From Undibacterium umbellatum (GTDB taxonomy: Bacteria; Pseudomonadota; Gammaproteobacteria; Burkholderiales; Burkholderiaceae_D): a stretch of 64,000 nucleotides of DNA. Position 1 is the first letter of the stretch; each line of letters begins with the position of its first letter. Shown here in pieces: positions 34,985 to 55,921 of this stretch. The notes below the pieces were generated by a model. It ran no database searches. It saw only the letters and a list, made by a program, of their open reading frames with translations, and was not told where the DNA came from. Location: the NCBI RefSeq assembly GCF_014284125.1, contig NZ_JACOFX010000024.1:1-64000 (forward strand), in the 5' to 3' direction. The position numbers and the translations under genes were made by a program.

Positions 34985-36131
34985 ATGGACTGACATACAA
35001 GCGCTTTGCCCTATTAATGGAAAGACTCCGGACTATCAGGCATGCCTTGATGCGTTTCCTGCGTTGGAATATGCTAAATTGACTCCGCAAGATGCCCGGT
35101 ATCATGGAGAAGGTGACGTATTCACACATACGGTGATGGTAGTTGAGGAACTCCTGTCATTACCGCAATATCAGATGCTCGGCCGTGAAAATCAGATCAC
35201 CGTCTTCCTGGCAGCTCTACTACACGATATTGCTAAATACAGTACGACCGTCATTGACCCTGACTCTGGGCGTATTAGTCAACCAGGCCATTCTCGGAGA
35301 GGTGCCGTAGACGCCAGAATTTCATTATGGGATCTGGGGGCGCCGTTTGAAATACGAGAAGCTATTTGTAGATTAATTGCCGTACATCAGGTGCCGTTTT
35401 TTGCCCTTGAGGGTTCGCGATCGGGGAAAACGCCAGAATTTCTTGTGCGTAAACTGTCTTGGGAGCTCGACGTGCGCCTACTCGCACTACTGGCGGAAGC
35501 AGACATGCGTGGAAGGATATGCCCGGATAAGCAAGGTGTGATTGATAATATCGAGCTATTTAGAGAGATTGCTCGCGACGAAAACTGCTTCGATCGTCCC
35601 TACTCGTTTGTAGATGCACACACTAGGCTTAGTTATTTTCGGGGGGCGGATGTTCATCCACACTACCCTCTTTTTCAGGAGCCAGGTTCTAAAGTTACTG
35701 TCATGTGTGGACTTCCTGCTTCAGGAAAAAACACATGGGTTGAACTCAATCGAAAGAACTTGCCCGTTGTTTCATTTGACGATAGTCGGGAAGAACTTGG
35801 ACTAAGGCATGGCAAGGCTGAGGGAGTGGTAGCGCACCATGCAATAGATCGGGCAAAAGTATTGCTTCGAGATCATGCCCCTTTTGTTTGGAATGCGACA
35901 CATTTATCACAACAGATGCGTGACAAAACGCTTAACTTGCTTTATGCATACGGTGCGGAAGTGAACCTAGTCTACCTTGAGCAATCCCGTACCGAATTGT
36001 TGAAGCGAAATAGCAAACGGGACTCTACTTTGACCAACAAGAGACTTGAAGCTATGGTTCTGAGGTGGGAGATCCCAACGCCAATTGAAGCTCACAATGT
36101 TATCTACGAAACTAGATCCTTCCAAAATTAG
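34977..36131 (+). CDS. HD-Pnk: RNA end-healing phosphoesterase and 5'-OH polynucleotide kinase
   Basis: A 384-residue bifunctional protein from the ATG at 34977 (GGAGAG six bases upstream; in-frame upstream starts lie inside the preceding gene). The amino-terminal half is an HD phosphohydrolase with H51, H83-D84 and H105 as probable metal ligands. The carboxy-terminal half is a P-loop kinase with Walker A GLPASGKNT at 245-253 and a downstream DDSREELG. The same layout defines the HD-Pnk family known from Runella: the HD part removes 2',3'-cyclic or 2'/3'-phosphates and the kinase phosphorylates 5'-OH ends, giving ends that the ligase two genes upstream can seal. It overlaps the HNH-like gene by eight bases, so the three are translationally coupled. 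Confidence 0.88.
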   Translation: MNKWTDIQALCPINGKTPDYQACLDAFPALEYAKLTPQDARYHGEGDVFTHTVMVVEELLSLPQYQMLGRENQITVFLAALLHDIAKYSTTVIDPDSGRISQPGHSRRGAVDARISLWDLGAPFEIREAICRLIAVHQVPFFALEGSRSGKTPEFLVRKLSWELDVRLLALLAEADMRGRICPDKQGVIDNIELFREIARDENCFDRPYSFVDAHTRLSYFRGADVHPHYPLFQEPGSKVTVMCGLPASGKNTWVELNRKNLPVVSFDDSREELGLRHGKAEGVVAHHAIDRAKVLLRDHAPFVWNATHLSQQMRDKTLNLLYAYGAEVNLVYLEQSRTELLKRNSKRDSTLTNKRLEAMVLRWEIPTPIEAHNVIYETRSFQN

Positions 36132-39916: not shown

Positions 39917-41350
39917 CTACGGGAGGTGCGGGCCATACCCTTCGGAGATGAGTACCTCGCGTAGTCCTTCTGTGTTATCTAGGAGCACATTTAATGCTTT
40001 GGCTGCCGCAGCTAGCTTTGCAGGACTAAGATGATCACGCGCGAATCTGAGGTAATTAAGCCTGGCGATACCGACCTGACGCGCATCGGCACATTCGTCG
40101 AGTCGCTTAATGCAGTCCAGGTAAAAATCTTCTTCTGATGGCAAGGCATAGCCTATGAAGGCGTTCTTAGCCCCTTTCCTCGGCTTTTTAAGCACTTCTT
40201 GGTTGTCGAGCCAAAACTCACCAAGAAAAATTAATTCCCATGCGCTATCCTTGCCTACGTCCAGCTTGTTGGTATAGCTCATCACCAGTATATGCCAGGC
40301 ATACACTTGTTCCACGTCCGCCAAATCCAGCGCTATGACGCTTTGCAGGTGCAAGGTTAGATTGGCTGCAATCGCTTGCAGCAGATCGAAGTCCTTGAGA
40401 GCAAGTGCGAAATACATAGCAGTTTCCAGGTGAAGCAAGGCACTTTGGTGCAGGCCCTCAATTTGTGTTCGATCTGTAGCTGCGTTCTTGCTAGCTTCTA
40501 TTAGCGCGCGCCGTGCCAGAAGTCCCCTTAAATTGTGCCAATGAGGAGCTGTCCGTATGTCAACCGCGAACAATGGCGCCGGTTCTGGGCCAAACTGAGC
40601 CAATCTCCGAAACACGTCGGCTGGCGACTCATCGTAATCGATACGGTCTAGCAGGAATTTGGCAGAGGACAAAAGGCCTCCATCGCGAAGACCTATGTCC
40701 GCGCCGGCGATTGCCTGTTTTACCTTGGTGCGCGCATCGTCGAACTCCCCTATGCGTTTGTGGAATAGCGCTTCGCGCACCAAGAGCATAGTACGAGTAT
40801 CGATGCTGAGTGGGTATTTGTAGGCTTCCTGCAGGAGTTCGATTGCGTCAATGAACCCACCATGCATAGCTTTTTCATCAGCGTCCCGGCAAATAACCAG
40901 TAATTGCCGAAGCATGTCAGTGTCACTGACTGTCAAGAGCAGTGGCCACGACCATTTCACTTTCTCGGTACCAGGTGAAGCCCTGTCATGGCTACCGGTA
41001 GATCCTTCAATAGAAAACTTTGCCTTGCGTAATATCTTCAGTCGCCATGGTCCTGCGGTGGGGCGCAATGATTCCAGACGAATGGGGCAATCTGGGGTTT
41101 TCTTGAACACATCGTTTAAGGTTTCTACGAGTCTGCTCAGTAGAGCTCGTGACAATGGTTTTGTCCACCCCCTTTTGAGAAGCTCGTATTTGAATGTTGC
41201 CGCATCCAACTCCTGGTTGGCCATCGCCTGTGTGGCGAGGAGAGCCAACATGGTCGCGGCCCATGCCCTGCGGAATTTGTGCACTTGCCCGCCGCCAAAC
41301 GCCACGCTATTTTCGGCTGGATCAATATGAATAGGGATGGGTTTGATCAT
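39917..41350 (-). CDS. Unknown helical protein coupled to the NTPase-nuclease
   Basis: A 477-residue, mostly helical protein with no family I recognise. Its middle (about residues 180-400) has tetratricopeptide-like helical hairpins (RTMLLVREALFHKRIGEFDDARTKVKQAI). Its ATG overlaps the TGA of the NTPase gene (ATGA at 41347-41350), so the two proteins are probably made together. Residues 24-44 (HKFRRAWAATMLALLATQAMA) look like a signal peptide or membrane anchor if translation instead starts at a GTG at 41284; I cannot decide between the starts. As the second gene of a putative defence cassette it may be a sensor, regulator or partner of the NTPase. Confidence 0.7.
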   Translation of the reverse strand: MIKPIPIHIDPAENSVAFGGGQVHKFRRAWAATMLALLATQAMANQELDAATFKYELLKRGWTKPLSRALLSRLVETLNDVFKKTPDCPIRLESLRPTAGPWRLKILRKAKFSIEGSTGSHDRASPGTEKVKWSWPLLLTVSDTDMLRQLLVICRDADEKAMHGGFIDAIELLQEAYKYPLSIDTRTMLLVREALFHKRIGEFDDARTKVKQAIAGADIGLRDGGLLSSAKFLLDRIDYDESPADVFRRLAQFGPEPAPLFAVDIRTAPHWHNLRGLLARRALIEASKNAATDRTQIEGLHQSALLHLETAMYFALALKDFDLLQAIAANLTLHLQSVIALDLADVEQVYAWHILVMSYTNKLDVGKDSAWELIFLGEFWLDNQEVLKKPRKGAKNAFIGYALPSEEDFYLDCIKRLDECADARQVGIARLNYLRFARDHLSPAKLAAAAKALNVLLDNTEGLREVLISEGYGPHLP

Positions 41351-44300
41351 TTAGAAGCTGTTGCTTTGGTTGTGATCTTCGGGACCGGTTCGACACAGCT
41401 GGAAACATCGATAGCGTAGATTTCCGGTTGTGGTCCATCCGGAGCTGCTTCCCTGATGGCCAAAGCCATTGATTGGAGATGCGTAACAACTGCGGTGAAA
41501 TCAATGAATGTCCCGTCTGGCAATTCCCATCCCTGTTTACGTTCTACTTGGTGCACAAGTAAAAGAATGCCGTAGCGGCCATTTTGTGCTCTCAAATATT
41601 GACCACATAGCTGAACTTTAAGTGCTTCCTCAAGTTTCTTCAGCGTCCAGCTCTCAGCGACTTTGATCTCGATAGACAGACAACCATCATCTACCTTTGT
41701 CCGCAAGCGTATGTCTGGTTCTTTTTCACCAGCAACATGTGCCTCCCGTTCAACCGAATAGGCTTTCCCCTGTGCTTGCCTGAACTGGGCAGCTAACCAG
41801 TTCTGTACCATTGGTTCGTTGGGAAGTATTTGCAACGTCTTGCCTTGCTGAAAGTCGCCGTGAAGCAGTTCGTGCTGCAGATCTGCAAGGCGACCAAGCG
41901 CAACATCGAGTAATTCTGGGCCAGTCTTTGGAGCGACCTCGAATTTTTGTTCTAATTGCAGTGCGTGGTTAGGTGTCCAGGCACTGGTTTCCGCATCTTG
42001 GGCAGCACGACTGCGTGCTAAGGCATCCAGGCGGGATGACTTGATAGGAAAATCAGGTATTTCAGCCAGGCGCATGATTGCAGCATATGCTTCAACGCCA
42101 GGTGTATCCACAAGGCTGTTGAACAGGATTCCCCTTGCCTCTTCAGCTTCATCACGTGCATCCGGCGAGTAAACTCCCTTATTGGCGCGGTCATGGTCAT
42201 CCTCAATTCGAACGGTACCAAATGCCAGGCGCACAAGACGTTCTTTCGTGATCACATCTAGTGCTGCAGTAGGACGGGTAAATCGTGGCCACCGCGTCCG
42301 AAAAATCTGGGGCAAGACTTGTATCGCAAGTTGAGTTTTATCGGCGTCATTCAGGCCATCTAGCCGGGCAACCAGGGCATCGGTTGCTTTTTGAGCGTCG
42401 ATAGCATACACCGCGCGGAGGTATTGAGCGCTGACTTTTGGATCGGCTGCCTTTTGAAATCTGTCGATGGCAAGCGCGACCAGGTCCGGCTTTTGTCCAG
42501 CAGCTAAACCAAGCACCAGTATCGGCAGTATCGGCCGAAGCGCTAGGTGGTTCAGAGTGCTCCTGGATTTCAACTCATTCAATAATGTCGGTGAAACCAG
42601 TTGCGAAAGGACCTCTGGCCCTCTGTAGATATATTCCAGTATTTGGTAATGGACGGTCGGCACCGGGCTATCGAGTTCGCCAATTATCTCCTTTGATAGT
42701 ACTGGTTCAACCTCTAGGGGAAAAGCTGTTGCCAAAGCGGAAATCCACTCTGGGAGGCTACCAATATGAAGAGTTGAAAACTGGGCGGCGCGTATCGCCT
42801 CTTCACGCTTCAATGTGCTGGGCCAATCTGGATGCGTTGTGCTCTCTATGAATATACCCGAAATACACATTGTCTCGAGCTCGGAGACAAAATTCTTCTC
42901 GTCGGGCTGGCGAGCACTGCGTAGTGTTGGTATCCAATTCCTCCAGGTAGAGGAAAGGGCAAGAGCAAATTCCTCTGCCGCTTTTTCTCCAATAATGCCG
43001 ATGATGGCATCCAAACTCTCTACCGTACCGGCGCCGCGGCCTGAAGTAGCTCTGTTTAGCAAATCCCAAAGATAGTAGATGCGGGAATCAACAGTTTTAT
43101 CTATTATTGGTGCAAGCTGCTTTAGCTGCTCCGGGCTATTACGTATGCTGATGACAAATTCAATCCAGTGCTGCTCTTCGGCTAACTGTTTTTCTTTATG
43201 GGTATGCAGGTATTCTGCTTGCTCCTGTTCAAACCTGATGTCTTCGGCATTTTTTTGATGCGGAGTCGTCGATTCAACAAAGGCCGCGTGTAATTCGCCA
43301 TCAGTAACAGCGATAGCTTCGATGCTGGCCAGGATTGCTTCGTCATTCTTTCCAGCAGTGGCCTGGACATACAGTGAGGTATTGATCGCCAATATGCGAT
43401 CTGCGGTGGGACCATCTCCTGCGGCGTCCTTAAGCAGCCATTCTATGTCAGTCAATTGGAATTCTGGGCACCAACCTTGGTGCATGATTTGATATAGATA
43501 GTGCAGTGGTCGTACCGGGGCAGGATTGCGGTTTTTTATCTGGGTAACAATCTCCCAAAAGACTGCCCTCCTCCGTTCCTTTGTGCTCTGCAGCTGTGCG
43601 ACTGCGTCCTTGCTTTTCTCTATGCGGTGACGTGATCGGTCAAAACGATAATCCCCAACCCGGATAATTGCATTCATGGCGGCAGCAGGCGCTTGATCTG
43701 GCGAGGACAAAGCGAGCAACCGGGCGGCTGCTGTTGACAGCATTGGAGCATATTGTGCATCTCTGGATGCATCGTCATCGAAAGGGTACTCGTTTGGTTC
43801 ATTCCCCAACTGACCTAACAGGCCATTGATTAGCCTGGTTTGGTCCTGAGCGTTTAACAATCTGGCAGCCAGGTCTGCACCGTTCCAGCTTAAATTGAAA
43901 CCACTGCTTTGTTTACCTTCAAGTTTAATTTCAGCAAGAATGGCAACAAAGTCATCGATACCAAGTGGATCTGGAAACAGTCTATCGATTGCGTCCCATA
44001 CCAGCGTAGCTGGTAAGGACTGGACATTCATTTTGACATACGCCGCATAGTCCTTTTTCTGGTCTGGAGCAGCGGTCTCCAATAAAGCCCAACCAGCCAT
44101 TATTGCCGTATATTCATCATTATATTTTCCAAATGACGCATCGAACGCAATGTCTGCGCAGTCCGTTAACTTACCAAGCGCTATCAGTCGAAGGATAAAG
44201 GGGCGGATTTCAGCATTGGATTTATCTGCTTCCCAGATGGTGCGTACCTTTTGCGCAATATCTGGCCGTGCGAATCTTTTAAGGCTGTCGAAGTCAAGGT

Positions 44301-45840
44301 GTGGAATTTCCTGGTTAAGTCGGATTCGCTCAATGACAGCAGTGAGCACCGCGCGCCTGATCGGCGCTGGCAGGCTGGCCGGGTCTCCCGCATTGACCAA
44401 GAGAAAAGGGTCTCTCTTTATTACCTCATTTGCGACGTTGACGTCCCATAAACTTAGCCATGCCGCTGTATGCTGCATGGATGGTTTAATCACTTGTATG
44501 CCATGGGTGTCGGAAAAGAGCAGGTCGTACAATTGTCTTTGTGGCAAATTGGCCTGGCGCAAGCGTAGGAGCCACTTCGCAGCAAGATATGCCCTGACTT
44601 CACCTTCATTGTCGTTATGCAACCTGGTGCGACCAAAGGTTGCTGGGTCAAATGCAGGGCGACTTAGTAAATGCTTCAGTTTCTGAGGTTCCCAGTCTGG
44701 CAGGATCTGTTCTATATGTGTTAACGAATGGTTGTCTGGTGCTGATTCTTCGTCTGGGATCGCGATGGTCGTTTGGCGCCCAAATACGAGTGCTGCGCCG
44801 ACTCTTTGCAGGCCGTGTAGTGCGCTTACGGAATCTAGGGAGTCTTGATATGTGCGCACTGTATCTGTTTCCCGGACTCGCTCTGCCAGGCTGGTCTCGA
44901 TCATTTCTGTGTAGCTGCCGAGGCGGCCATGGCTGAGCCAATACCGTACAATCCATTCCAGGTCGAGCGGGCGCCGGGCAAGACTCCAGATATTGGCGTT
45001 GTGTATAGCAGCAAGAAGTTCATCAAGCATGGCAACATTTCTGGCTGTGGCATAGGTCCGTATCTGTTCCGGGCCAAGGTGAGCCAGCATAACAACGATG
45101 GGGGTTTCAACCGGTACGGGATCTGGTTCCTTTTCGTGACGCAGAATTTTTCGAATCTGATTTTCTAGGGTAGGAGCAGGTGTAGTGGGTAAGTCTGCCG
45201 GCAGCGGAAGTTCCTCATTGAGGGTAGTGGCGTCCCGATTGAACTCCCAATCGGTATGCCTGCCTGAGAGAACTATGTGCGTGCGCCCTTCTGCGCCCAG
45301 AATGCCGTCTGCTATCTCACGTAGGGCGTGGTTAAGGCGAAAACGATTCAGCTTGGCTTCGTCAATAGAATCGATGAAAAACCATGCTGGGTCTTGGCTG
45401 CTTAGCCATGCCGTGTATCTGGCTCTATCTGGAGTACGAATCGCCTTTGCCAGGCCCCTTCCGGCGACATCCTGCACAGTCGCATAGAATGCGTATTTTC
45501 CCGCTATGGTCTGTTGGCGAGTCTGTTCAACCAGCTCTGTTGTTTTACCACTTCCCGCTTCGGCAAGAATAACGACTCTACGTTTCTTGATAAGGTCTGG
45601 CCACGTCAGTAGACCATCCGATAACCCAGCGGCTGTACGTAGTAGAGCTATGCTTTCAGGGTCTGTATCTCTTCTTAATTCGCAGAAGCGGCGGTCAAGG
45701 GAAATTGCAGTCACTCTTTTAGTCCTCCAGTACCCACGCTTCTCTTTCGAAAAACTTGGGATATTGCGCCATAAGCCAACATTGGCTGTTAGATAACACA
45801 ATAACCCGATGGTTAACACTACTGCAAGTGACAAATTCAT
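41347..45840 (-). CDS. Membrane-anchored NACHT/STAND-like NTPase with PD-(D/E)XK nuclease end
   Basis: A 1,497-residue protein. Residues 3-20 form one transmembrane helix. A P-loop follows: Walker A AEAGSGKTT at 93-101 and Walker B WFFIDSIDEA at 153-162, the arrangement of NACHT/AAA-type STAND ATPases. About 1,000 residues of helical repeats come next, the usual sensor part. Near the end, D1376 in EPDIRL and E1391-x-K1393 in SIEIKV form a PD-(D/E)XK nuclease signature, followed by a helix and a GRYGILLLV strand as in restriction-like folds. This fits an antiviral STAND protein that is triggered by phage and cuts nucleic acid, but with the nuclease at the carboxy end and an amino-terminal membrane anchor. 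There is no strong Shine-Dalgarno before the ATG at 45840. The defence role is inference. Confidence 0.75.
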   Translation of the reverse strand: MNLSLAVVLTIGLLCYLTANVGLWRNIPSFSKEKRGYWRTKRVTAISLDRRFCELRRDTDPESIALLRTAAGLSDGLLTWPDLIKKRRVVILAEAGSGKTTELVEQTRQQTIAGKYAFYATVQDVAGRGLAKAIRTPDRARYTAWLSSQDPAWFFIDSIDEAKLNRFRLNHALREIADGILGAEGRTHIVLSGRHTDWEFNRDATTLNEELPLPADLPTTPAPTLENQIRKILRHEKEPDPVPVETPIVVMLAHLGPEQIRTYATARNVAMLDELLAAIHNANIWSLARRPLDLEWIVRYWLSHGRLGSYTEMIETSLAERVRETDTVRTYQDSLDSVSALHGLQRVGAALVFGRQTTIAIPDEESAPDNHSLTHIEQILPDWEPQKLKHLLSRPAFDPATFGRTRLHNDNEGEVRAYLAAKWLLRLRQANLPQRQLYDLLFSDTHGIQVIKPSMQHTAAWLSLWDVNVANEVIKRDPFLLVNAGDPASLPAPIRRAVLTAVIERIRLNQEIPHLDFDSLKRFARPDIAQKVRTIWEADKSNAEIRPFILRLIALGKLTDCADIAFDASFGKYNDEYTAIMAGWALLETAAPDQKKDYAAYVKMNVQSLPATLVWDAIDRLFPDPLGIDDFVAILAEIKLEGKQSSGFNLSWNGADLAARLLNAQDQTRLINGLLGQLGNEPNEYPFDDDASRDAQYAPMLSTAAARLLALSSPDQAPAAAMNAIIRVGDYRFDRSRHRIEKSKDAVAQLQSTKERRRAVFWEIVTQIKNRNPAPVRPLHYLYQIMHQGWCPEFQLTDIEWLLKDAAGDGPTADRILAINTSLYVQATAGKNDEAILASIEAIAVTDGELHAAFVESTTPHQKNAEDIRFEQEQAEYLHTHKEKQLAEEQHWIEFVISIRNSPEQLKQLAPIIDKTVDSRIYYLWDLLNRATSGRGAGTVESLDAIIGIIGEKAAEEFALALSSTWRNWIPTLRSARQPDEKNFVSELETMCISGIFIESTTHPDWPSTLKREEAIRAAQFSTLHIGSLPEWISALATAFPLEVEPVLSKEIIGELDSPVPTVHYQILEYIYRGPEVLSQLVSPTLLNELKSRSTLNHLALRPILPILVLGLAAGQKPDLVALAIDRFQKAADPKVSAQYLRAVYAIDAQKATDALVARLDGLNDADKTQLAIQVLPQIFRTRWPRFTRPTAALDVITKERLVRLAFGTVRIEDDHDRANKGVYSPDARDEAEEARGILFNSLVDTPGVEAYAAIMRLAEIPDFPIKSSRLDALARSRAAQDAETSAWTPNHALQLEQKFEVAPKTGPELLDVALGRLADLQHELLHGDFQQGKTLQILPNEPMVQNWLAAQFRQAQGKAYSVEREAHVAGEKEPDIRLRTKVDDGCLSIEIKVAESWTLKKLEEALKVQLCGQYLRAQNGRYGILLLVHQVERKQGWELPDGTFIDFTAVVTHLQSMALAIREAAPDGPQPEIYAIDVSSCVEPVPKITTKATASK

Positions 45841-45938: not shown

Positions 45939-47258
45939 TTACAACGTAAGGTTACCCTGCCGACTGACCGAGATTTCTCCAGGTTGAATAGGGCGCTTGT
46001 CTGTTTTTCCCTTGATTTCATTAAACGCGTCGCTTTGCGCCACGGCTATCGCGGCTGATTGCATGCATATCGCTAGTTCATGTTCTGGGTGTACCCAGGC
46101 GGCACCGTTACGCATGCTGTATTGAACCCAGAGGTAATGTGTCTGGCGCAAGGTAATTTCCAGCCCGCATTCTTCCAGAGTACCGCGTACCTTATGGCAG
46201 TCGTCTTTGAGGTGTTCTGGTACTTCTGGCAGGTTGACTTTGGCAAGGAGGACAAGAGCCTTATCGATGATGGTGAGTGCGATCGTGGCGTCGTCGACGG
46301 AGACGCGCTTGCCAAAGCTGCAGTAGTACGCGGACATGACGTTTGGTCGGTTGTGTCCCATGTTTTCACTCGGGCGTAAGAGTATTGTACGTAGCCTGTC
46401 CTTGGACATCTGCCCTTTTGCGCCTCCCATGGACGGGGGAATAATTCCGTGTACCAGGGCGTTATTTTCTGCAAACTGCGCGCGCAACGAGTGGCCGGTT
46501 ATACCCAGGTCCTTTTTGGTGAGGCCAATCTGGCGCATGTAATTGTTGTAGCGGGTAATGTTTTGTTTCAGGTTTGCAGCAGATTTTCCATCGCGTGTAA
46601 GTGGCCAGCCCAGGGCCTCACCTTTTGGTATTTCCGCTTTGACGGTGGCAAGGATTTCTCGTTGCGCCGACGTCAGTGTATTGACATGGCGCTCGCGGCC
46701 TCCTTTGCCATGGCCTTTATCAATACGCAGGAACTGGGTGAAGTCTTGCGCATGGGGCCTGCATTTCAGCGCTTCTTCTCTGCGCAGGCCGAATGCCACT
46801 TCTATGCGCAGTATAAGACCCAGGCGGCGATTGACGGCGTCTGCGCGTGCAAATACCTGTGGAAGGTCCACGCGGTTGCCGGTGGCGCTTTTGGGCGCGC
46901 GCGCCGCGGCTTCCACGCGCAGTAAATGAGCATCTTCTTTACTCACGTAGGTGAGCTTGCTTTTGACCATACTGGCTTTGCCTATCCAGGTGGCAAATAT
47001 GCGGAGGTTGGATAAGCTTGCTTCTATTGTTTTTGGCTTTGCCTGCTTCTTGTAAATCCAATAATGCATTAATGCTTTTATATGTTTTTCCTGGAGGTTA
47101 GCTGGCTCTTGTAGCTTGAACCCCAGTTCCGCAAGTTGCTTGAAGCTGGCTTGCAACGATTCTTTGCGCGCGGTGAAAGTTCTTTCGGACGCAACGCGGC
47201 CATTTTGGCGGGTTCCAGCGTTTGCGTGAATTATTTCGAGCAATTTATCTTTTATCAA
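45939..47258 (-). CDS. Tyrosine recombinase (integrase)
   Basis: A 439-residue site-specific recombinase. Catalytic residues are visible: R159/R160 in GLRREE, K in the IDKGHGKGG segment (about 181-185), H256-S-L-R259, H302 in MGHNRP and Y311/Y312 in SAYYCS. The amino-terminal ~100 residues fit the SAM-like core-binding domain. It starts at a TTG with GAGGA six bases upstream. It resembles integrases of genomic islands and conjugative elements rather than XerC/D. It is divergent from the traKLM-like operon and co-directional with the NTPase gene 98 bp beyond its stop, so either side may belong to the same integrated element. The attachment site was not found. Confidence 0.85.
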   Translation of the reverse strand: MIKDKLLEIIHANAGTRQNGRVASERTFTARKESLQASFKQLAELGFKLQEPANLQEKHIKALMHYWIYKKQAKPKTIEASLSNLRIFATWIGKASMVKSKLTYVSKEDAHLLRVEAAARAPKSATGNRVDLPQVFARADAVNRRLGLILRIEVAFGLRREEALKCRPHAQDFTQFLRIDKGHGKGGRERHVNTLTSAQREILATVKAEIPKGEALGWPLTRDGKSAANLKQNITRYNNYMRQIGLTKKDLGITGHSLRAQFAENNALVHGIIPPSMGGAKGQMSKDRLRTILLRPSENMGHNRPNVMSAYYCSFGKRVSVDDATIALTIIDKALVLLAKVNLPEVPEHLKDDCHKVRGTLEECGLEITLRQTHYLWVQYSMRNGAAWVHPEHELAICMQSAAIAVAQSDAFNEIKGKTDKRPIQPGEISVSRQGNLTL

Positions 47259-48160
47259 TTTTTCCTCAATCTCTCGAAATGTGGTTCTTATTGCTTACGC
47301 GCCCGGGTAGTTGTCCAGGTGCTGAGTTTTCACTTCTGTGGCGGCCATGGCGGGCATCCTTAAATACGCTGAATTGGTTCCGAGCTGCCAAATGCCTGAA
47401 CTTCGAAACCCCGTAGGAATCACTACCTACGGTCGCTTCCCCAATACTCTGAGAAGACCGGGAACTTATCGTGTTCCATGCGTCACGTCTCTACCCTTGA
47501 TCTTGCTGGCGGGTAGCCATGGTCACGTGAGGACCAGTATTCTTTTTTTCCGGCCTATAGCTGGACGCTGTTACACACTGGTAGGTGAGCTCAGCGCTCA
47601 TTCTGTCCAGCATCCGGGGGCAATCCCATAGCAGCAATTATTTAAATACCTGAGTGTTTTCTGTTTGGAGTCTGGCAGAAAGTACCAGCGACTTTTTGTG
47701 ATTTGCAGCGTACGATTTTGATGCAGATAATTTCGTGTTTCTGTGGTGTTTCAGTGTTTGATAATCGGCGGAGAGCCGCTTCAGCGTTGTACTCTAGATG
47801 TACTCTGTGTTTGGTCGAATTTTAATTTCTGTGGCAAAAAAAAGCGCGAATTGTTTCACCAATTCAGCTCGGAAAAATCTATTTTGAGGTTGGGAAAGAA
47901 AGATCCCAGGAGTTAATGCCTGCTAATCAGGCGAGGTAAACTTTTGAGTCGATGGACTCTCCATTGCGTTGCATTGGGGAGTCATTTTGAATAGTTGTTG
48001 GCTAATTTTTGCAGTGCCGATTGCCGACCACACTATTTGACCGCTTTTCGCATACTTTTGCAAGTACTTCCAGCAGAAAATCCTGATGATTTCTACCCAT
48101 GTCCGATTCGCGAAAAAACAGCAAGTTTTATTGGGTATTGCAATATAGCCTGATTAAACA
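47259..48160. other. Structured intergenic region between integrase and traKLM; candidate oriT/attachment region
   Basis: About 900 bp with no supported gene but many inverted repeats. These are CCGTAGG/CCTACGG at 47411-47417 and 47426-47432; GGAAC/GTTCC at about 47461-47477; GCTGGAC and GTCCAGC spaced about 45 bp at about 47554-47612; GCCTG/CAGGC at 47923-47937; GAGTC/GACTC at 47948-47961; and palindrome AAGTACTT at 48062-48069. An ATCCTG hexamer at 48080-48085 equals the core of the IncP-type nick region, but it is short enough to be chance. The position between an integrase and traK-like gene is where an origin of transfer would be expected. Confidence 0.45.
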
Positions 48161-48470
48161 TCGCTACGACATTCCACGACAAAATACGACGTTTTACGAC
48201 ATTCCACGACACTTTACGACATTCCACGACACTTTACGACACTTTACGACACTTTACGACACTTTACGACATTCCACGACATTCCACGACATTCCACGAC
48301 ACTTTACGACATTCCACGACACTTTACGACACTTTACGACACTTTACGACACTTTACGACATTCCACGACATTCCACGACATTCCACGACATTCCACGAC
48401 ACTTTACGACATTCCACGACACTTTACGACTTTTCACGACGTTTTACGACAAATTACGACATTCCACGAC
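48161..48470. repeat. Array of thirty-one 10-bp iterons
   Basis: Thirty-one uninterrupted 10-bp units, each ending in TACGAC or CACGAC. Thirteen are attccacgac, twelve are actttacgac and six are variants at the two ends. Units from 48211-48300 are repeated exactly at 48301-48390, showing growth by a 90-bp tandem duplication. The spacing is close to one DNA helical turn, so bound protein would line one face. It lies about 90 bp before the traK-like gene, exactly where RP4 TraK or R388 StbA sites lie. Confidence 0.95.
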
Positions 48471-48490
48471 ATAGAATTTGTGAAGGCGAA

Positions 48491-48500
48491 GTAGTACTAC
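48491..48500. promoter_or_regulatory. Perfect 10-bp palindrome before traK-like gene
   Basis: GTAGTACTAC between the iterons and the traK-like start, a candidate operator. A related AAGTACTT palindrome is at 48062-48069. Confidence 0.35.
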
Positions 48501-48564
48501 TCGCGACAATTTAGTAGGCAAGCCAAATCGATTTTTAGAAAACGCCAAAAAGGAATTAATCCTG

Positions 48565-48939
48565 ATGAAAATTCCAGACCTCACATCTTTCCCAGAAAGC
48601 AGTCGGACCAAAGTATCTCGCATTGAAGAATTGTTCGACCGCATCACATGTTTGAAGAAGGAGGGCATTAGCTACCAAGATATCGCTACAAAGCTCACAA
48701 ACGAAGGGATGCAGATTACGTCTCAGGAACTGACCTCTATGCTTGGTCGCATTCGGAGGAAGAGAAAGGCGGTCTCAAGCATGAACGGAATTTCCGGTAA
48801 AGCCTCACCGGTAAACAACTTGCCGGTCGCGTCGTCGATTTCTTTGCCAAATTCGGAAGTAATCGATGCGCAACACGAAGAGACCAGACCTTATGCTCAT
48901 CAGAAGGACGGCAAGTTAATTGCCGATGAGGTTTGGTGA
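48565..48939 (+). CDS. TraK/StbA-like DNA-binding protein
   Basis: A 124-residue protein with AAAGGAA nine bases before its ATG. Residues 17-70 (RIEELFDRITCLKKEGISYQDIATKL...MLGRIRRKR) form a helix-turn-helix with a basic end, followed by a long polar, probably disordered tail. This is the shape of IncP TraK and IncW StbA, small proteins that bind clustered short repeats upstream of their own gene at or near the origin of transfer. The iteron array just upstream is the obvious binding site, and binding would also autoregulate the operon. It is followed by a TraL-like and a TraM-like gene in the RP4 order, which supports the call more than sequence similarity alone. Confidence 0.7.
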   Translation: MKIPDLTSFPESSRTKVSRIEELFDRITCLKKEGISYQDIATKLTNEGMQITSQELTSMLGRIRRKRKAVSSMNGISGKASPVNNLPVASSISLPNSEVIDAQHEETRPYAHQKDGKLIADEVW

Positions 48940-48961
48940 AAATTAAAGAGGAAGTAAAGGC

Positions 48962-49696
48962 ATGAATCAAATTCATATGGTGCTGCAAGGTAAAGGTGGA
49001 GTTGGCAAATCGTTGATAGCGGCGCTCATCGCTCAGAAACTGATTGATGACGCCGAGGTTCGTCTACCTGGTGATGTACTTTGTATTGATACCGATCCGG
49101 TGAACGCAACATTCGCCGGATACAAATTTTTTGACGTGGTCCAGGCAGAGATTCTTGATGGTAATGCCGATATAAACAAAAGGATGTTCGATCGTCTTAT
49201 CGAAGCGGTAGCCTGCTCGGATAAAGTCTCTGTAGTCGACAACGGTTCCACTTCATTTCTGCCACTGTCCTCCTACATGGCGGAGAATGCAGTAATTCCC
49301 ATGCTAGAAGAAATGGGAAAGGAAGTAATTATTCATTCGGTTCTCACTGGTGGCCAAGCCATGGAAGACACCATCTCTGGGCTCACCTCGGTTCTAAGGA
49401 AACAACCGGCAAAAGTGGTGGTTTGGCAAAATGAGTATTTTGGCCAGGTCGTTAGAGACGGCCGCCCCTTTGTCGAATCGAAGCTGTACGACCAGTTTCA
49501 TCAGAAAATTTTGGGTGTTGTGACACTCCGCAAACTCAACCAGGATACGGCAGCTCGCGATATGGAGATCATGATCTCTCATCGCCTTACATTCAAGGAG
49601 GCGATGGAGTCCCCCCTCTTCACTTTGATGCCACGACATAGGCTTCTATCCATTAAAAAGGAAATATTTAACCAGCTCGAAGCTATCGGCATTTAA
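48962..49696 (+). CDS. TraL/StbB-like ParA-family ATPase
   Basis: A 244-residue protein with a deviant Walker A KGGVGKS at 11-17 (IHMVLQGKGGVGKS start) and the segments CIDTDPVNATFAGYK, NGSTSFLPLSSY, VIHSVLTGGQAMEDT and RLTFKEAMES...LMPRHRLLSIKKEIFNQL. These match the IncP conjugation protein TraL, a ParA/MinD-type ATPase homologous to StbB, along the whole length. Such ATPases position plasmid DNA or assist transfer. AGAGGAAG precedes its ATG. It overlaps the next gene by one base (TAATG). Confidence 0.85.
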   Translation: MNQIHMVLQGKGGVGKSLIAALIAQKLIDDAEVRLPGDVLCIDTDPVNATFAGYKFFDVVQAEILDGNADINKRMFDRLIEAVACSDKVSVVDNGSTSFLPLSSYMAENAVIPMLEEMGKEVIIHSVLTGGQAMEDTISGLTSVLRKQPAKVVVWQNEYFGQVVRDGRPFVESKLYDQFHQKILGVVTLRKLNQDTAARDMEIMISHRLTFKEAMESPLFTLMPRHRLLSIKKEIFNQLEAIGI

Positions 49697-50214
49697 TGAC
49701 GATGTCGGCTTCAAAAATAGAAATGGAAGCGCTAGCGACCGAAATATTTGAATTAACGGGGCAGAAAGTCGAATTCGACGATCCCGTGGTTGTTGCTGCA
49801 CTCATCCAATCCAGGATGATTCGGCAAGGTTACCTTGACGGGGTCGCAGCACTAAAGGTTACAGCCACGGAGATATTGGGAGATGCAAAGAAAATATCCG
49901 AGTTTGAAAAGGACAAACTCAAAATATTCCGCGATTCCCAGAATTTAGCTGTACGACAATCTGGCGATATGGTCCGAGCTTTAGTAAAGGCCGAGCTTCC
50001 GAAAATTCGCAAAGAATTTTACGAGGTTGCAACGGAAGTCATTCTTGAAGTCGACCGTAATCAAAATACTAAGAAGCTAAAGGTGTATTTAGCCGTAGCA
50101 GCTTTTTTCTCTATTTTTACGTTCCTCGCTGGTTTCTTTTTGGGTGCCGAATTGCGAACTATCCCTCCTGCTCATCCCAATCACCCAGAAAGCAAGCTGC
50201 CTCGTTCTTTCTGA
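49696..50214 (+). CDS. TraM-like membrane protein
   Basis: A 172-residue protein starting at ATG 49696 inside a TAATG junction; a second in-frame ATG lies three codons on. The start (EALATEIFELTGQKVEFDDPVVVAALIQSRMI) aligns with IncP TraM (a DDP-x-x-x-x-x-x-x-N/S-R-(L/M) pattern). It continues with a charged coiled-coil-like segment and a single transmembrane helix at about 133-153 (VYLAVAAFFSIFTFLAGFFLGAEL). It would sit in the inner membrane with the coiled coil in the cytoplasm, perhaps linking the ATPase to the membrane. Third gene of the orphan traKLM-like operon. Confidence 0.75.
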   Translation: MTMSASKIEMEALATEIFELTGQKVEFDDPVVVAALIQSRMIRQGYLDGVAALKVTATEILGDAKKISEFEKDKLKIFRDSQNLAVRQSGDMVRALVKAELPKIRKEFYEVATEVILEVDRNQNTKKLKVYLAVAAFFSIFTFLAGFFLGAELRTIPPAHPNHPESKLPRSF

Positions 50215-50236
50215 TATCACAAGTTTTCCAGTTAAA

Positions 50237-50284
50237 TAGAAACTATAGTATCTCTAGACATCAAAAGAGATACAATAGTTTCTA
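50237..50284. promoter_or_regulatory. hipBA operator 1 (19-bp inverted repeat)
   Basis: Arms at 50237-50255 and 50266-50284 (TAGAAACTATAGTATCTCT and its complement) pair with one mismatch around a 10-base spacer. A HipB-type TATC...GATA pair lies inside. The sequence is upstream of the antitoxin gene, so it is a probable autoregulatory site. Confidence 0.75.
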
Positions 50285-50313
50285 TTATTGTCATTCGGCT
50301 CTTGCATTTTAAT

Positions 50314-50356
50314 GAAACTAAACTATCATTAGATACCAAATAGATAGTTTAATTTC
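50314..50356. promoter_or_regulatory. hipBA operator 2 (14-bp inverted repeat)
   Basis: Arms at 50314-50327 and 50343-50356 (GAAACTAAACTATC and its complement) pair with one mismatch around 15 bases, again with internal TATC/GATA. It ends seven bases before the hipB start, so binding would block transcription or initiation. Confidence 0.75.
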
Positions 50357-50362
50357 ACTCAT

Positions 50363-50674
50363 ATGAAAACGCTTGCCGATATTGCAATATTCCTAAAAAA
50401 TAGCCAGGAACTCCATAAGGTTTCCCAAAAAACAATTATGGAGAATACTGGCCTAACGTCACCTACAATCCGAGGCCTGTTGTCAGCCAAGAAAGACTCC
50501 AAACTTACGACCTTGATGGCCGTGGCAGATGAACTTGACCTCGAATTGATTCTAGTCCCTAAGGCACTGGCCAGCTCTCTTCTAGGAGGACTGTCTCCAG
50601 ACGTTTCGAAAATGCCTCATCCTGTTAGGACACTTGTAAGTTCTGCCCTCAACCGAAAAGAGAACAAGCAATGA
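50363..50674 (+). CDS. hipB: HipB-like antitoxin
   Basis: A 103-residue protein. Residues 20-62 form an XRE-type helix-turn-helix (VSQKTIMENTGLTSPTIRGLLSAKKDSKLTTLMAVADEL). It would bind the two inverted-repeat operators just upstream and neutralise the HipA kinase. It overlaps the toxin gene by four bases (ATGA at 50671-50674), as in classic hipBA. No strong Shine-Dalgarno is visible before ATG 50363. Confidence 0.85.
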   Translation: MKTLADIAIFLKNSQELHKVSQKTIMENTGLTSPTIRGLLSAKKDSKLTTLMAVADELDLELILVPKALASSLLGGLSPDVSKMPHPVRTLVSSALNRKENKQ

Positions 50675-51969
50675 ATTTCAGCGCACTGGATATATTTATT
50701 GGTGACACGAAGGCAGGTGTCCTCTTCCGGTATGGTGACATAGTCCGTTTTAGCGTGGACTATGAATATGCCAACGACCCCGATCGCCCACAAATATCAT
50801 TGTCCCTTAGAGCCGAAGATCCGGCCCAGGATGCGGCCCTTCTATTGAATCCAACTAGTCCTGAACTGAATTCGAGTGGTGGCGGGAGACTCCCGAATTT
50901 CTTCCAAAACTTGCTACCTGAGGGTGTTCTCAGAAAGCATATTGCAGAATTACGCAAATGTTCTGAAGACGACTACTTCGAGTTACTTGCAGCTTGCGGA
51001 GGAGACTTGCCAGGCAATGTATATGCGCGTCCTTCGTCGTTGGATAGGAGGTTTACGGCGAGATTCGTCACCCAACAGCAAGATGCGCTAGAAGAAAGCG
51101 TCGTCGAAGATCCTTTGGAAGATGGAGTTTCAATCTCCGGGATGCAACCAAAACTTGCCCTGGTACTAGAAGGAGGACGATACGTTGCGAGGCAGCGCCA
51201 TGAAGGTGCACACATCATAGGTAAGCTTCCAACCACACAGTATGACCTCCTTCCTGAAGTAGAACATTTGTCCCTTCGGCTTGCTGCAGCAGCTGGAGTA
51301 ACAGTATGTGAAACTGACCTGGTTAGTCTTGATCTGATACTTGCAGAACACAACTATGTAATCGGAAAATCAAATAATTTTTTGGCTGTGAAACGATTTG
51401 ATCGGGATCAGCCTGGCCGCCTACATGCCGAAGACTTCGCTCAAATCTTAAACGTCGATCCTTCAAATAAATACAGTGGGGGAAGCTATGCCGATATTGC
51501 GAATGTAATGCTAAGGGTAGAGGGACTCGGCGAGCAGGCAGTTTTGGAATTAGTCAGGAGAATTGCGGTTAGTGAGCTTCTAGGTAATTACGATTTTCAT
51601 CTCAAGAACATTGGCGTTCTACATATGCCGGATGGGAAAGTACTCCTATCGCCTGCCTACGATATCGTGGCATACAGTGTCTACATAAACGGGAGCGGCC
51701 ACGCCCTGCCATTTGCCCATGGCCAGAAGAAAAAGCAAATTCTGGAGCCAACGGCAATACGAGCATTTGCGAACGCTGTCAGCATGCCGGAAGTCAAACT
51801 GAGAAATGAGATAAAGAAAGTTTGCGTGGCTGCTGCAAAAGACTGGAATGCACTGATCGATACGAGTGAAATCCAAGAGAATCAAAAAGTTACTCTTAAA
51901 ACGTTCTTTGCTGGCAGGCCCGTGATGAAAAATTACTTGCGTCGAAAAACAAAAGCGGTAGGTGGATAG
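50671..51969 (+). CDS. hipA: HipA-like serine/threonine kinase toxin
   Basis: A 432-residue HipA. Visible motifs are the nucleotide-binding S156-G-M-Q159-P-K161, the catalytic loop N306-Y-D308-F-H310-L-K-N313 (the NxDxHxKN type) and the metal-binding D331 in AYDIVA. In E. coli HipA phosphorylates glutamyl-tRNA synthetase and halts translation, giving dormant tolerant cells. The protein is complete with no frameshift. It forms an operon with HipB and lies just beyond the traKLM-like genes, consistent with a stability module of the mobile element. Confidence 0.9.
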   Translation: MNFSALDIFIGDTKAGVLFRYGDIVRFSVDYEYANDPDRPQISLSLRAEDPAQDAALLLNPTSPELNSSGGGRLPNFFQNLLPEGVLRKHIAELRKCSEDDYFELLAACGGDLPGNVYARPSSLDRRFTARFVTQQQDALEESVVEDPLEDGVSISGMQPKLALVLEGGRYVARQRHEGAHIIGKLPTTQYDLLPEVEHLSLRLAAAAGVTVCETDLVSLDLILAEHNYVIGKSNNFLAVKRFDRDQPGRLHAEDFAQILNVDPSNKYSGGSYADIANVMLRVEGLGEQAVLELVRRIAVSELLGNYDFHLKNIGVLHMPDGKVLLSPAYDIVAYSVYINGSGHALPFAHGQKKKQILEPTAIRAFANAVSMPEVKLRNEIKKVCVAAAKDWNALIDTSEIQENQKVTLKTFFAGRPVMKNYLRRKTKAVGG

Positions 51970-52686: not shown

Positions 52687-52768
52687 GTAAGCGTCCAGCC
52701 GCCCCACCTAGCATTGAACGATGACCTCATCCAGACTCACGCTCCCATCACAAGTAAAGAGGAGCGAC

Positions 52769-53098
52769 ATGAAACGAGATCAAACCAAGCGGCAGCAGTG
52801 GCAGCTACACATCGCCCAATGGCAGCAGAGTGCACTGAGCCAGCGCGCCTTTTGCGTAAGTGCAGGCCTCAAGTTCGCCACCTTCGACTATTGGCGGCGC
52901 GCACTCATCGCCGAACAGTCCGTTGAGAATAAGCCATCCCAATCGCAGCAGCCCGGCATTCAGCTATTACCCTTGCAAGTGACGCCTGCTGGGTCTGGTT
53001 CCATGGGACTGGTGTTGCGCAGCCCGCAAGGCTGGGAACTGCGTCTGCCACCCGAGGTCAAGGCGGACTGGCTGTCCGACCTGCTGCGTGGCCTGTGA
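52769..53098 (+). CDS. tnpA: IS66 TnpA accessory protein
   Basis: A 109-residue protein from ATG 52769, preceded by AGAGGAG; an upstream in-frame start is less likely. The amino half (KRQQWQLHIAQWQQSALSQRAFC...FATFDYWRR) is the helix-turn-helix typical of IS66 OrfA/TnpA. Required with TnpB for transposition in IS66 elements. Its stop overlaps the tnpB start (TGATG). Confidence 0.9.
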   Translation: MKRDQTKRQQWQLHIAQWQQSALSQRAFCVSAGLKFATFDYWRRALIAEQSVENKPSQSQQPGIQLLPLQVTPAGSGSMGLVLRSPQGWELRLPPEVKADWLSDLLRGL

Positions 53099-53439
53099 TG
53101 CAATGGCAGGCAGATGCCATCTGGCTGGCTGTGCAGCAGGTCGACATCCGCGCCGGGATCGACCGCCTGTCAACCTACGTCCAGCAAGCCCTGGGGCGTG
53201 CGCCTTGCGACGGTACTGCCTACGTATTCAGCAACCGGCGCCACACACGCCTCAAAGTGGTGTGCTGGGATGGCAACGGCGTGTGGATGTGCGTGCGCCG
53301 CCTGCACCGTGGTCAATTCGTCTGGCCCAAGCCTGGCGAGCTCAGTTGGCAATTGACCGCCGAGCAATGGCAGTGGCTGGTGGCCGGCGTCGATTGGCAG
53401 CGCTTGTCGGCACCGGCTCCGGCAGCCTGGGCACTGTAG
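53098..53439 (+). CDS. tnpB: IS66 TnpB accessory protein
   Basis: A 113-residue protein beginning at ATG 53098 (a GTG one codon earlier is also possible). The segments DIRAGIDRLSTYVQQ, GRAPCDGTAYVFSNRR and RLHRGQFVWP are characteristic of IS66 Orf2/TnpB. Its biochemical role is not established. It overlaps tnpA by one base and lies 43 bp before tnpC. Confidence 0.93.
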   Translation: MQWQADAIWLAVQQVDIRAGIDRLSTYVQQALGRAPCDGTAYVFSNRRHTRLKVVCWDGNGVWMCVRRLHRGQFVWPKPGELSWQLTAEQWQWLVAGVDWQRLSAPAPAAWAL

Positions 53440-53482
53440 CAAGTCCCTGTTAACTTCGACGCGATTCTGTTAACATGGCGCC

Positions 53483-55072
53483 ATGGATCTGCTCGAACAA
53501 CTCGCCCATACCAACGCCGACCCTGCGCTCCTTGCGCAGTTGCAGGCCATGCTGGCCCAGAAGGACGAGCTGATCGCTGCGAAGGATGCCCAACTACACG
53601 TCCTGCAGAGACAGCAGGATGCGTTGAGTGCCGCTGGGCACGCCAAGGACATCAAGATCAAGGCACTGACGCTGGAACTGGCGCATCACAAGCGCATCCG
53701 TTTCGGCAAGGCCGGCGAAGCCTACAGCGGCGAGCAACTGGATATGTTCAACGAAACCATCGATACGGACCTGGCGGCGATGGAGGCCGAACTGGAGGCG
53801 CTACAAGCGCCACGTCCGGCCAAGCCGCGCAGCCGTGCCGGTCGCCAGCCGCTGCCCAGCGAACTGCCGCGCATTGAGTACCGCCATGAACCAAGCTCTT
53901 GCCAATGTGCAGCCTGCGGGCGCGACCTGGTCAAGATCGGCGAAGACGTCAGCGAACAACTCGATGTCGAACCAGCACGCTTCTTTGTGCATCGCCATAT
54001 TCGTCCTCAATATGCCTGCCGTGGCTGCGACACGGTCACCGCTGCGGCGATCCCGCCAGCGGTGATCGATGGTGGCCTCGCCGCTCCCGGTTTGTTGGCC
54101 TGGGTTGCGGTCAGCAAGTTTGCCGATCATTTGCCCCTGTACCGGCCGGAACAGATCGCTGCCCGCCAAGGGGTGCCGCTGGCGCGTTCTACGTTGGCAG
54201 AATGGATAGGTAAGCTCGGCGTGGCTTTGCAGCCCTTAAGCGAGCGCTTGGCCAAACTGCTGCGGCAACGGCCTTGCCTGCACGCCGACGAGACCCCGGT
54301 ACGCCAGCTTGATCCCGGCCAGGGCAAGACCAAACACGCCTATTTGTGGGCCTATCGCTCCAACCATCTGGACCAGGGGCCACCCATTATCGTGTTTGAC
54401 TACCAGAGCGGCCGTGCCGGTGCTCACGCACGCGCCTTCCTCGGTACTTGGCGCGGCCATCTTATGGTGGATGACTATGCCGGCTACAAGGCACTGTTCG
54501 CCGATGGCGTGACCGAACTGGCTTGCCTGGCCCATGTGCGGCGCAGGTTCTTCGAGCTACATGCGGCCAACGGCAGCCCGGTGGCGGCCGAGGCACTATG
54601 CCGCATCGCAACACTGTACGCCATTGAGCAACAGGCTGCGAGCGAGACGGCCGAAGCGCGCCTGCAACTACGGCAAGCGCAAGCCAGGCCGGTACTGGTT
54701 GAACTGCATGCCTGGCTGCTGACGATGCAACAAGCTGTCGCACCAGGCAGCGGCACGGGCAAGGCCATTGAGCACGCACTCAAACGCTGGCCGGCGCTGG
54801 TGCGCTATATCGATTCGGGCACGCTGCCGATCGATAACAATGCGGTCGAAAACGCGATACGTCCGATTGCCATAGGCAAGAAGAACTGGCTGTTCGCCGG
54901 CTCAGAACGCGCCGGCCGCCGTGCTGCCGCCATCCAGACCTTGCTGGGCACCGCCAGGCTCAATGGCCTTGATCCGATGCAATGGCTGACCAGCGTCCTA
55001 GAACGTCTCCCGACGTGCCCTAACAACCAGATCGATTCGCTGCTGCCATTTCCGAACTCTACACAGCTATAA
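53483..55072 (+). CDS. tnpC: IS66 TnpC transposase
   Basis: A 529-residue DDE transposase. The first ~90 residues form a leucine-zipper-like coiled coil (LAQLQAMLAQKDELIAAKDAQL). A zinc finger follows at about 140-185 (CQCAACGRDL ... YACRGCD). The catalytic domain includes LHADETPV, MVDDYAGYK and the carboxy-terminal NNAVENAIRPIAIGKKNWLF segment with the third acidic residue. Full length, so the element is potentially active. Confidence 0.95.
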   Translation: MDLLEQLAHTNADPALLAQLQAMLAQKDELIAAKDAQLHVLQRQQDALSAAGHAKDIKIKALTLELAHHKRIRFGKAGEAYSGEQLDMFNETIDTDLAAMEAELEALQAPRPAKPRSRAGRQPLPSELPRIEYRHEPSSCQCAACGRDLVKIGEDVSEQLDVEPARFFVHRHIRPQYACRGCDTVTAAAIPPAVIDGGLAAPGLLAWVAVSKFADHLPLYRPEQIAARQGVPLARSTLAEWIGKLGVALQPLSERLAKLLRQRPCLHADETPVRQLDPGQGKTKHAYLWAYRSNHLDQGPPIIVFDYQSGRAGAHARAFLGTWRGHLMVDDYAGYKALFADGVTELACLAHVRRRFFELHAANGSPVAAEALCRIATLYAIEQQAASETAEARLQLRQAQARPVLVELHAWLLTMQQAVAPGSGTGKAIEHALKRWPALVRYIDSGTLPIDNNAVENAIRPIAIGKKNWLFAGSERAGRRAAAIQTLLGTARLNGLDPMQWLTSVLERLPTCPNNQIDSLLPFPNSTQL

Positions 55073-55288: not shown

Positions 55289-55921
55289 ATGAACACCACC
55301 ACTACCGCCAACTTTGATGAGACCTTGCAAGAGGCTTTGCGTGTCAGTCAGACCAATGATGGCCCAGCAGCTATTGCACTGTTTCAGCAGGCATTGGCTA
55401 TCAATCCGCAATCAGCGACTACTTATAGCTTGTTAGCGGCGGAATACATTACGCTCGGTTACGTAGCAGAAAGCGAAGCCGCTTATGCAAATGCCTTGAT
55501 GCTCGCACCGGAGTTTCATTTGGCGCGCTTTCAGATGGGTTTGTTGCAGTTTACATCAGCCAGAGTGGCAATCGCTCTCCTGACCTGGCAGCCCTTACTA
55601 GCGTTGTCGGATGATCATGCTCTGAAGTTGTTTGTAATGGGCTTTGCCCATATGGCGCAGGACGATTTTGAGGTGGCGCTGGGGTATTTTGAGCGTGGCA
55701 TACAAAGCAACATCGATATCCCGCCCTTAAATACGGATATTCAGCGGGTGATTAGGGAAATCAAGAGCTTGCAGGAAAAACTTGCGCTGGATGCGACAAA
55801 TTCAACTGAGCCGACGCCAACAATCACGCCAGCAGAAGAGGAAAATAAGCACGAGTCTGAGGTAGAAACCAGTGCGCATTTCTTGTTGAATAATTATCAG
55901 CAGCAAGGGCCTTTGCATTAA
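55289..55921 (+). CDS. Tetratricopeptide-repeat protein
   Basis: A 210-residue protein with about three TPR-like helical pairs in residues 10-150 (AIALFQQALAINPQSATTYSLLAAEYI and AYANALMLAPEFHLARFQMGLL type units). It ends in an acidic, proline/threonine-rich tail. No signal peptide, so probably a cytoplasmic adaptor. It is the only plus-strand gene beside the flagellar operon and converges with it. A role in flagellar or motility assembly is possible because a second TPR protein ends that operon, but nothing in the sequence shows it. AGGA lies about eleven bases before the ATG. Confidence 0.75.
   Translation: MNTTTTANFDETLQEALRVSQTNDGPAAIALFQQALAINPQSATTYSLLAAEYITLGYVAESEAAYANALMLAPEFHLARFQMGLLQFTSARVAIALLTWQPLLALSDDHALKLFVMGFAHMAQDDFEVALGYFERGIQSNIDIPPLNTDIQRVIREIKSLQEKLALDATNSTEPTPTITPAEEENKHESEVETSAHFLLNNYQQQGPLH

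Follow-up and report, generated by a model that had tools for sequence, protein, structure and literature searches.

Among the closest described systems is the stbABC operon of plasmid R388, in which the protein StbA binds its stbDRs, repeats that are required for plasmid stability and restrain conjugation, and the ATPase StbB is required for conjugation and not for stability (PMC3098194). The locus described here lies in a 64,000-nucleotide stretch of the Undibacterium umbellatum genome (contig NZ_JACOFX010000024.1, positions 1 to 64,000; hereafter, the window), and the closest relatives that we found are carried by two plasmids of the host's own genus, pUKW01 (strain KW1) and pUYM01 (strain YM2). 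Both plasmids share the order traKLM-hipBA, with traKL being broken or lost in pUYM01. The features of the locus are as follows:

45939-47258, minus strand: divergent tyrosine integrase gene (Integrase_1 and Phage_int_SAM_2 above cut-off)
47338-47870, no strand: non-coding stretch of ~530 bp, 5' of the array (90.9% identical to pUKW01, 88.6% to pUYM01)
47848-47865, no strand: inverted repeat GAATTG-N6-CAATTC, candidate integrase crossover site
48161-48470, no strand: direct-repeat array NNNNYACGAC, 31 x 10 bp, stbDR-like, probably bound by the traK product
48565-48939, plus strand: traK/stbA-like gene, 124 aa, StbA-like N-terminal domain and conserved C-terminal tail (hhalign, 7pc1_A)
48962-49696, plus strand: traL-like gene, ParA/MinD-type ATPase with KGGVGKS, 244 aa (NCBIfam PRK13886)
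49696-50214, plus strand: traM-like gene, 172 aa, conserved N-terminal domain (hhalign)
50363-50674, plus strand: hipB-like antitoxin gene (HTH_26 E 0.0035, below cut-off; position shared with pUKW01 and pUYM01)
50671-51969, plus strand: hipA toxin-family gene (Pfam HipA_C 165 bits, Couple_hipA 72.9 bits)

Kinship of the three operon genes

The traK-, traL- and traM-like genes are all intact and all under constraint, and the latter two overlap by one base (49696). The second protein matches NCBIfam PRK13886, the TraL family, over profile positions 1-238 of 241 (256.6 bits, E 2e-76) with the motif KGGxGK[ST] present; since this score is below the curated cut-off of 360, the protein is a divergent family member. 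Its identity to the pUKW01 protein is 80.7%, falling to 50% for the second-ranking plasmid record, the gene shows a pN of 0.11 vs. a saturated pS of 0.81, and a search with back-translated patterns revealed no close TraL relatives in genome_contigs or viral_contigs.

Searched alone, the window TraK had no significant family match, including in Pfam and NCBIfam (neither of which gave a ParB-family match), and the sole match up to E 10 in the single-protein search was StbA, at E 0.93. This silence of the libraries says little because R388 StbA itself falls far below the cut-off of a library StbA family (19.2 bits vs. 100). In hhalign, a TraK profile with six members (window, pUKW01 and four proteins encoded at the position of traK in other loci) gave 91% with R388 StbA (E 1e-6), compared to a maximum of 2.4% among 28 controls (one reversed StbA, ten shuffles, 15 other R388 proteins and two HipB); a profile from the window and pUKW01 only reached 86%, with five shuffles and the reversed StbA at 0.2% or less. 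The PDB profile search with the TraK set recovered the StbA entry 7pc1_A (E 5.4e-4), with two designed repeat proteins ranking higher, and the match to nine IncP-type TraK proteins, two of which are DUF5338 members, was weaker than that to StbA (58%). That is, judged by these profile comparisons, the window TraK is nearer to StbA than to IncP-type TraK. While the protein shares only 47.6% amino acid identity with its pUKW01 counterpart, 18 of the last 19 residues are identical, which suggests a fixed partner contact for this C-terminal tail.

The third protein matched a set of eight IncP-type TraM proteins at 95% (hhalign, E 3.6e-8) over 52 N-terminal columns, and a C-terminal hydrophobic stretch can be read by eye; no TraM library family matched it or its pUKW01 homologue. 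Collectively, assignment of the three genes to a TraKLM/StbABC operon is supported, and the first-pass annotation, which had proposed both this kinship and three overlapping or closely spaced genes behind the array, agrees with the profile results for TraL, an StbA-type TraK and the TraM N-terminal domain, the IncP-type TraK set being matched at the lower value given above. A promoter and terminator scan returned five and three sites, respectively, not above shuffles.

A second, chromosomal type of TraL was also observed. A TraL match was present in 90 of 294 family genomes, most of which have one at 33-38% identity (loci L019-L033 and L220-L223, from related family genomes). In the several loci of this type that were read, a short TraM-like gene comes next, no traK or comparable array was found, and cysM-like neighbours recur (by eye). 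A TraL-TraM pair kept without conjugation would be worth a separate study.

The repeat array and its distribution

The array consists of 31 adjoining 10-bp units (48161-48470), with the core YACGAC in 31/31 by script count, as had been noted from the sequence, and TRF independently reported a period of 10 bp and 30.8 copies (48165-48472). The units ATTCCACGAC (13 copies) and ACTTTACGAC (12 copies) make up the middle, and the six others all lie within four units of either end; such a uniform middle with divergent ends may be the trace of growth by tandem duplication. A four-unit YACGAC pattern gave 28 matches on one strand of the 6.46-Mb host genome, which is the yield of a single 31-unit array, and none on the other strand or in the reversed control, and 10 of 10 places among the matches listed fall inside the array. 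The same pattern is present in 4 of 399 genomes of the order, the host counted, and elsewhere in at least 119 stretches in genome_contigs and 12 in viral_contigs; among the matches listed, tblastn with the window proteins found no relative in these stretches at E 1e-3.

The TACGAC core at 10-bp spacing also occurs 5' of traK in pUKW01 (6 units) and pUYM01 (4 units; both counted by eye), with spacer bases that differ from those of the window. That is, array and traK have been kept together in three loci. Alternatively, the array could be a protein-coding repeat, since a 131-aa ORF (48099-48494) runs open across it, or a neutral satellite, and not a binding array at all. A stop-free 10-bp unit tends, however, to leave a frame open, the aligned pUKW01 frame has stops just before and after its 6 units (by eye), and core and place, as opposed to spacers, are conserved in the three loci; hence, we consider this alternative extremely unlikely.

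To place the array among others, we surveyed the 28 loci with traK placed (the remaining TraL loci were dropped) for a periodic stretch within about 600 bp 5' of traK, with 200 shuffles per locus and p<0.01, uncorrected. Periodic repeats scoring above nearly all shuffles were found in 14 of the 28 loci and differ in sequence; these 14 include the window and pUKW01, two of them (L015 and L017) are almost the same sequence, and some of the stretches amount to about two copies. In the other 14 surveyed loci, no array was clearly discernible. Since the periods assessed were limited to 9-12 and 20-23 bp, the survey provides no evidence that these periods are preferred. Repeats 5' of traK are therefore frequent in this sample, and the 31 units of the window are its extreme, the next longest array having about 12, which bears out, among these 28 loci, the earlier remark that the array is longer than known ones.

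Genomic setting and history of the module

The window is chromosomal by synteny, as its flagellar genes match the KW1 chromosome, and the chromosomal region that holds the module, flanked by a giant gene and the flagellar cluster, is variable. This interval spans ~5 kb in KW1, where its ORFs have no match in the window, and ~25 kb in the window (31.3-56.0 kb), where it houses the module together with a HyoA-family defence gene and further genes. The hipB-hipA pair (50363-51969) follows the operon, as in pUKW01 and pUYM01. A plasmid-like contig of the host, C28, carries a remnant of the module with two clear TACGAC units, adjoining a second integrase and a ParA/ParB-like region that resembles that of pUKW01; pUKW01 carries a ParA/ParB pair in addition to the module.

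Several neighbours are worth recording in their own right. The giant gene is a 9667-aa ORF (2144-31147, minus strand) with a homologous stretch at the same chromosomal place in KW1, and giant genes are also found near the module on pUKW01 and pUYM01. To the left of the integrase lies the gene of a HyoA-family NACHT antiphage protein (41347-45840, minus strand; NF058534, 1269.6 bits vs. a cut-off of 1200), and an RNA ligase gene beside an HD plus P-loop (AAA_33) gene (33579-34481 and 34923-36131, plus strand) may represent an RNA-repair pair. Palindromes before hipB (50220-50362) resemble antitoxin operators by eye. Between hipA and the flagellar side, the ORFs at 52721-55072 (plus strand) resemble an IS66-type element, and similar DNA is present on pUKW01 and pUYM01. 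A TPR-like gene (55289-55921, plus strand) is also found beside the pUKW01 module, on its other side (L002, 14850-15476), with a further copy on the KW1 chromosome.

The integrase is indeed divergent from the operon, as first described; pUYM01 carries pieces homologous to it in the corresponding position, and the pUKW01 stretch has no match to it. The non-coding stretch that follows (47338-47870) is more identical to the plasmids than its adjoining genes are; among 43 genus genomes it was found in the host, KW1 and YM2 only, and 294 family genomes gave chance-level matches only, apart from the host and KW1. The left part of the locus (integrase and 530-bp stretch) is 83-91% identical to the plasmids and the right part (traK to hipA) 66-74% identical to pUKW01, the fall in identity to relatives being mapped near 47853, with 40-base resolution, beside GAATTG-N6-CAATTC. 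This inverted repeat is exact in the window and pUKW01 and has one mismatch in pUYM01; taken alone, it is not above chance (1 found vs. 3.8 expected, two mismatches allowed). One reading is that two histories were joined near 47853, perhaps via the integrase; another is stronger constraint on the left part. Constraint as the sole cause of the non-coding identity is weakened by the adjoining integrase start, in pieces in pUYM01, also being 85.7% identical, as against 66-74% for traK to hipA, and recombination near 47.85 kb explains the identity of the stretch equally well. The single direct repeat found outside the array between 36 and 57 kb is a 17-nt pair (36485/53271), possibly due to chance, with its second copy in a transposase-like ORF.

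A structured RNA in the 530-bp stretch was considered and rejected. Rfam gave no match at gathering and one chance-level match (E 0.089), in the integrase gene; folding z-scores were -0.72 and -0.30, and only 1 of 148 predicted pairs was changed on both sides among the three sequences. A hairpin that looked compensatory by eye falls outside the predicted fold, and we make no claim for it.

Function, alternatives and comparison with known systems

Profiles PF03432 (MOB_P relaxase), PF08751 (TrwC) and PF03135 (VirB4), each of which matched 1 of 14 reference genomes used as controls, had no match in any of the three whole genomes of the host, KW1 and YM2; the initial observation that the locus has no relaxase thus extends to the whole genome where MOB_P and MOB_F are concerned, and VirB4 is likewise absent. 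For pUKW01, a gene table known to be incomplete lists no relaxase or T4SS gene over 1-73312 and 85700-135601, the rest of the plasmid lying within two listed genes; pUYM01 was read over 158682-175363 only. Both plasmids were typed as non-mobilizable, by a typing that also misses annotated relaxases elsewhere. By comparison, among 19 named non-Undibacterium plasmid stretches, hand-chosen from the TraL matches plus R388, 17 have a relaxase, TraJ or MobC annotated, mostly divergent from traK, and the remaining two carry T4SS genes. Our searches of open-licence PMC papers revealed no report of a relaxase-free stbABC/traKLM.

The explanation that we favor, and consider somewhat probable, is that the locus is a relaxase-free, StbA-type module for DNA anchoring and maintenance, of Undibacterium plasmid origin, with an expanded array and no conjugation system; that is, it looks like an anchoring module that has been orphaned, and not like a component of transfer machinery. 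By analogy, TraK should coat the array: the StbA-like protein would occupy neighbouring 10-bp sites along almost a single helix face, building a long nucleoprotein structure over 310 bp, and probably would also repress its own operon. Its conserved C-terminal tail would contact TraL, the ParA/MinD-like ATPase, and the TraM-like protein, presumably anchored in the membrane, would tie the complex to it, so that TraL and TraM together could link the coated array to the nucleoid or membrane. By holding or positioning DNA within the cell, the assembled complex could stabilise the replicon or island. The module (array-traKLM-hipBA) would have moved from an Undibacterium plasmid lineage to the variable chromosomal region, and the array would have grown by tandem duplication. 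What we infer in this model comprises binding to DNA, autoregulation, the contacts with TraL and the membrane, the direction of transfer and the maintenance role. Without a transfer system, positioning and maintenance are left as roles; it is important to note that a maintenance role would be partly redundant in pUKW01 given its ParA/ParB pair, that the module, broken in pUYM01 and a remnant on C28, is dispensable, and that any part of TraL in maintenance is made less certain by StbB being unnecessary for the stability of R388.

Two readings had been put forward initially, a mobilisable island and a DNA-positioning module. Under the former, a helper conjugative element would act in trans on the array and upstream region as an oriT, the integrase would serve excision, and traKLM would encode accessory relaxosome proteins. 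The relaxase, TraJ or MobC genes beside so many plasmid homologues, the conserved 530-bp stretch 5' of the array and the divergent integrase are all consistent with such a role; however, it is weakened by the negative searches for a MOB_P/MOB_F relaxase and VirB4 in the host and the two nearest carriers and, within the limits of the typing, by the non-mobilizable status of the plasmid relatives. We thus regard the island as unlikely, although a visiting helper element may still mobilise the locus, and DNA positioning fits better. It is also improbable, in our view, that the locus is a relic, i.e., a plasmid fragment retained on the chromosome by the hipBA addiction pair with traKLM having no present role. 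The broken or deleted copies in pUYM01 and C28 and the variable region shared with hipBA and a defence gene are in line with decay, but three intact, constrained genes and an invariant array core argue against it.

A further, highly unlikely reading is that the 31-site array acts as a chromosomal docking or incompatibility hub, with chromosomal TraK bridging it to TACGAC sites on plasmids (two clear units on C28, 6 on pUKW01 and 4 on pUYM01). If true, plasmids of the same lineage would ride the chromosome at division, or be destabilised by site competition, and the locus would make testable the plasmid-chromosome pairing that Guynet et al. reportedly suggested for StbA.

The favored anchoring and maintenance reading bears on how StbA/TraK-type proteins position DNA, and whether conjugation is needed for it, and the locus should be of interest to researchers of these proteins. 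The occurrence of the module where neither a MOB_P/MOB_F relaxase nor VirB4 was matched would set segregation apart from transfer, the arrays found within a single genus (4, 6 and 31 units) represent a natural series of site number, and the conserved TraK tail suggests a contact with the ATPase that can be tested.

In conclusion, the locus represents no new class of system. The TraKLM/StbABC class is known; new here are its chromosomal, hipBA-linked setting without a MOB_P/MOB_F relaxase and the exceptional array. The locus resembles stbABC in its three-gene order, StbA-like first protein, ParA/MinD-type second protein and direct repeats just 5' of the first gene at near-helical spacing, but R388 (IncW) has two sets, each of five 9-bp repeats separated by 2 bp, as opposed to one block of 31 x 10 bp of another sequence, its stb lies beside oriT and a MobF relaxase while the window module is chromosomal with no MOB_P/MOB_F relaxase found, and the window ATPase (KGGVGKS) is of the TraL type, unlike in stbABC (PMC3098194). 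With IncP-type traKLM, compared through pMBUI1 and others (a set without RP4), the locus shares TraL family PRK13886, the TraM N-terminal domain and gene order; it differs in a TraK closer to StbA and no TraJ/TraI neighbour. Finally, traKLM-hipBA of pUKW01 and pUYM01 share with it the TACGAC core at 10-bp spacing, gene order and the 530-bp non-coding stretch, but have 6 and 4 units, respectively, on plasmids, compared to 31 units on the chromosome in the window.
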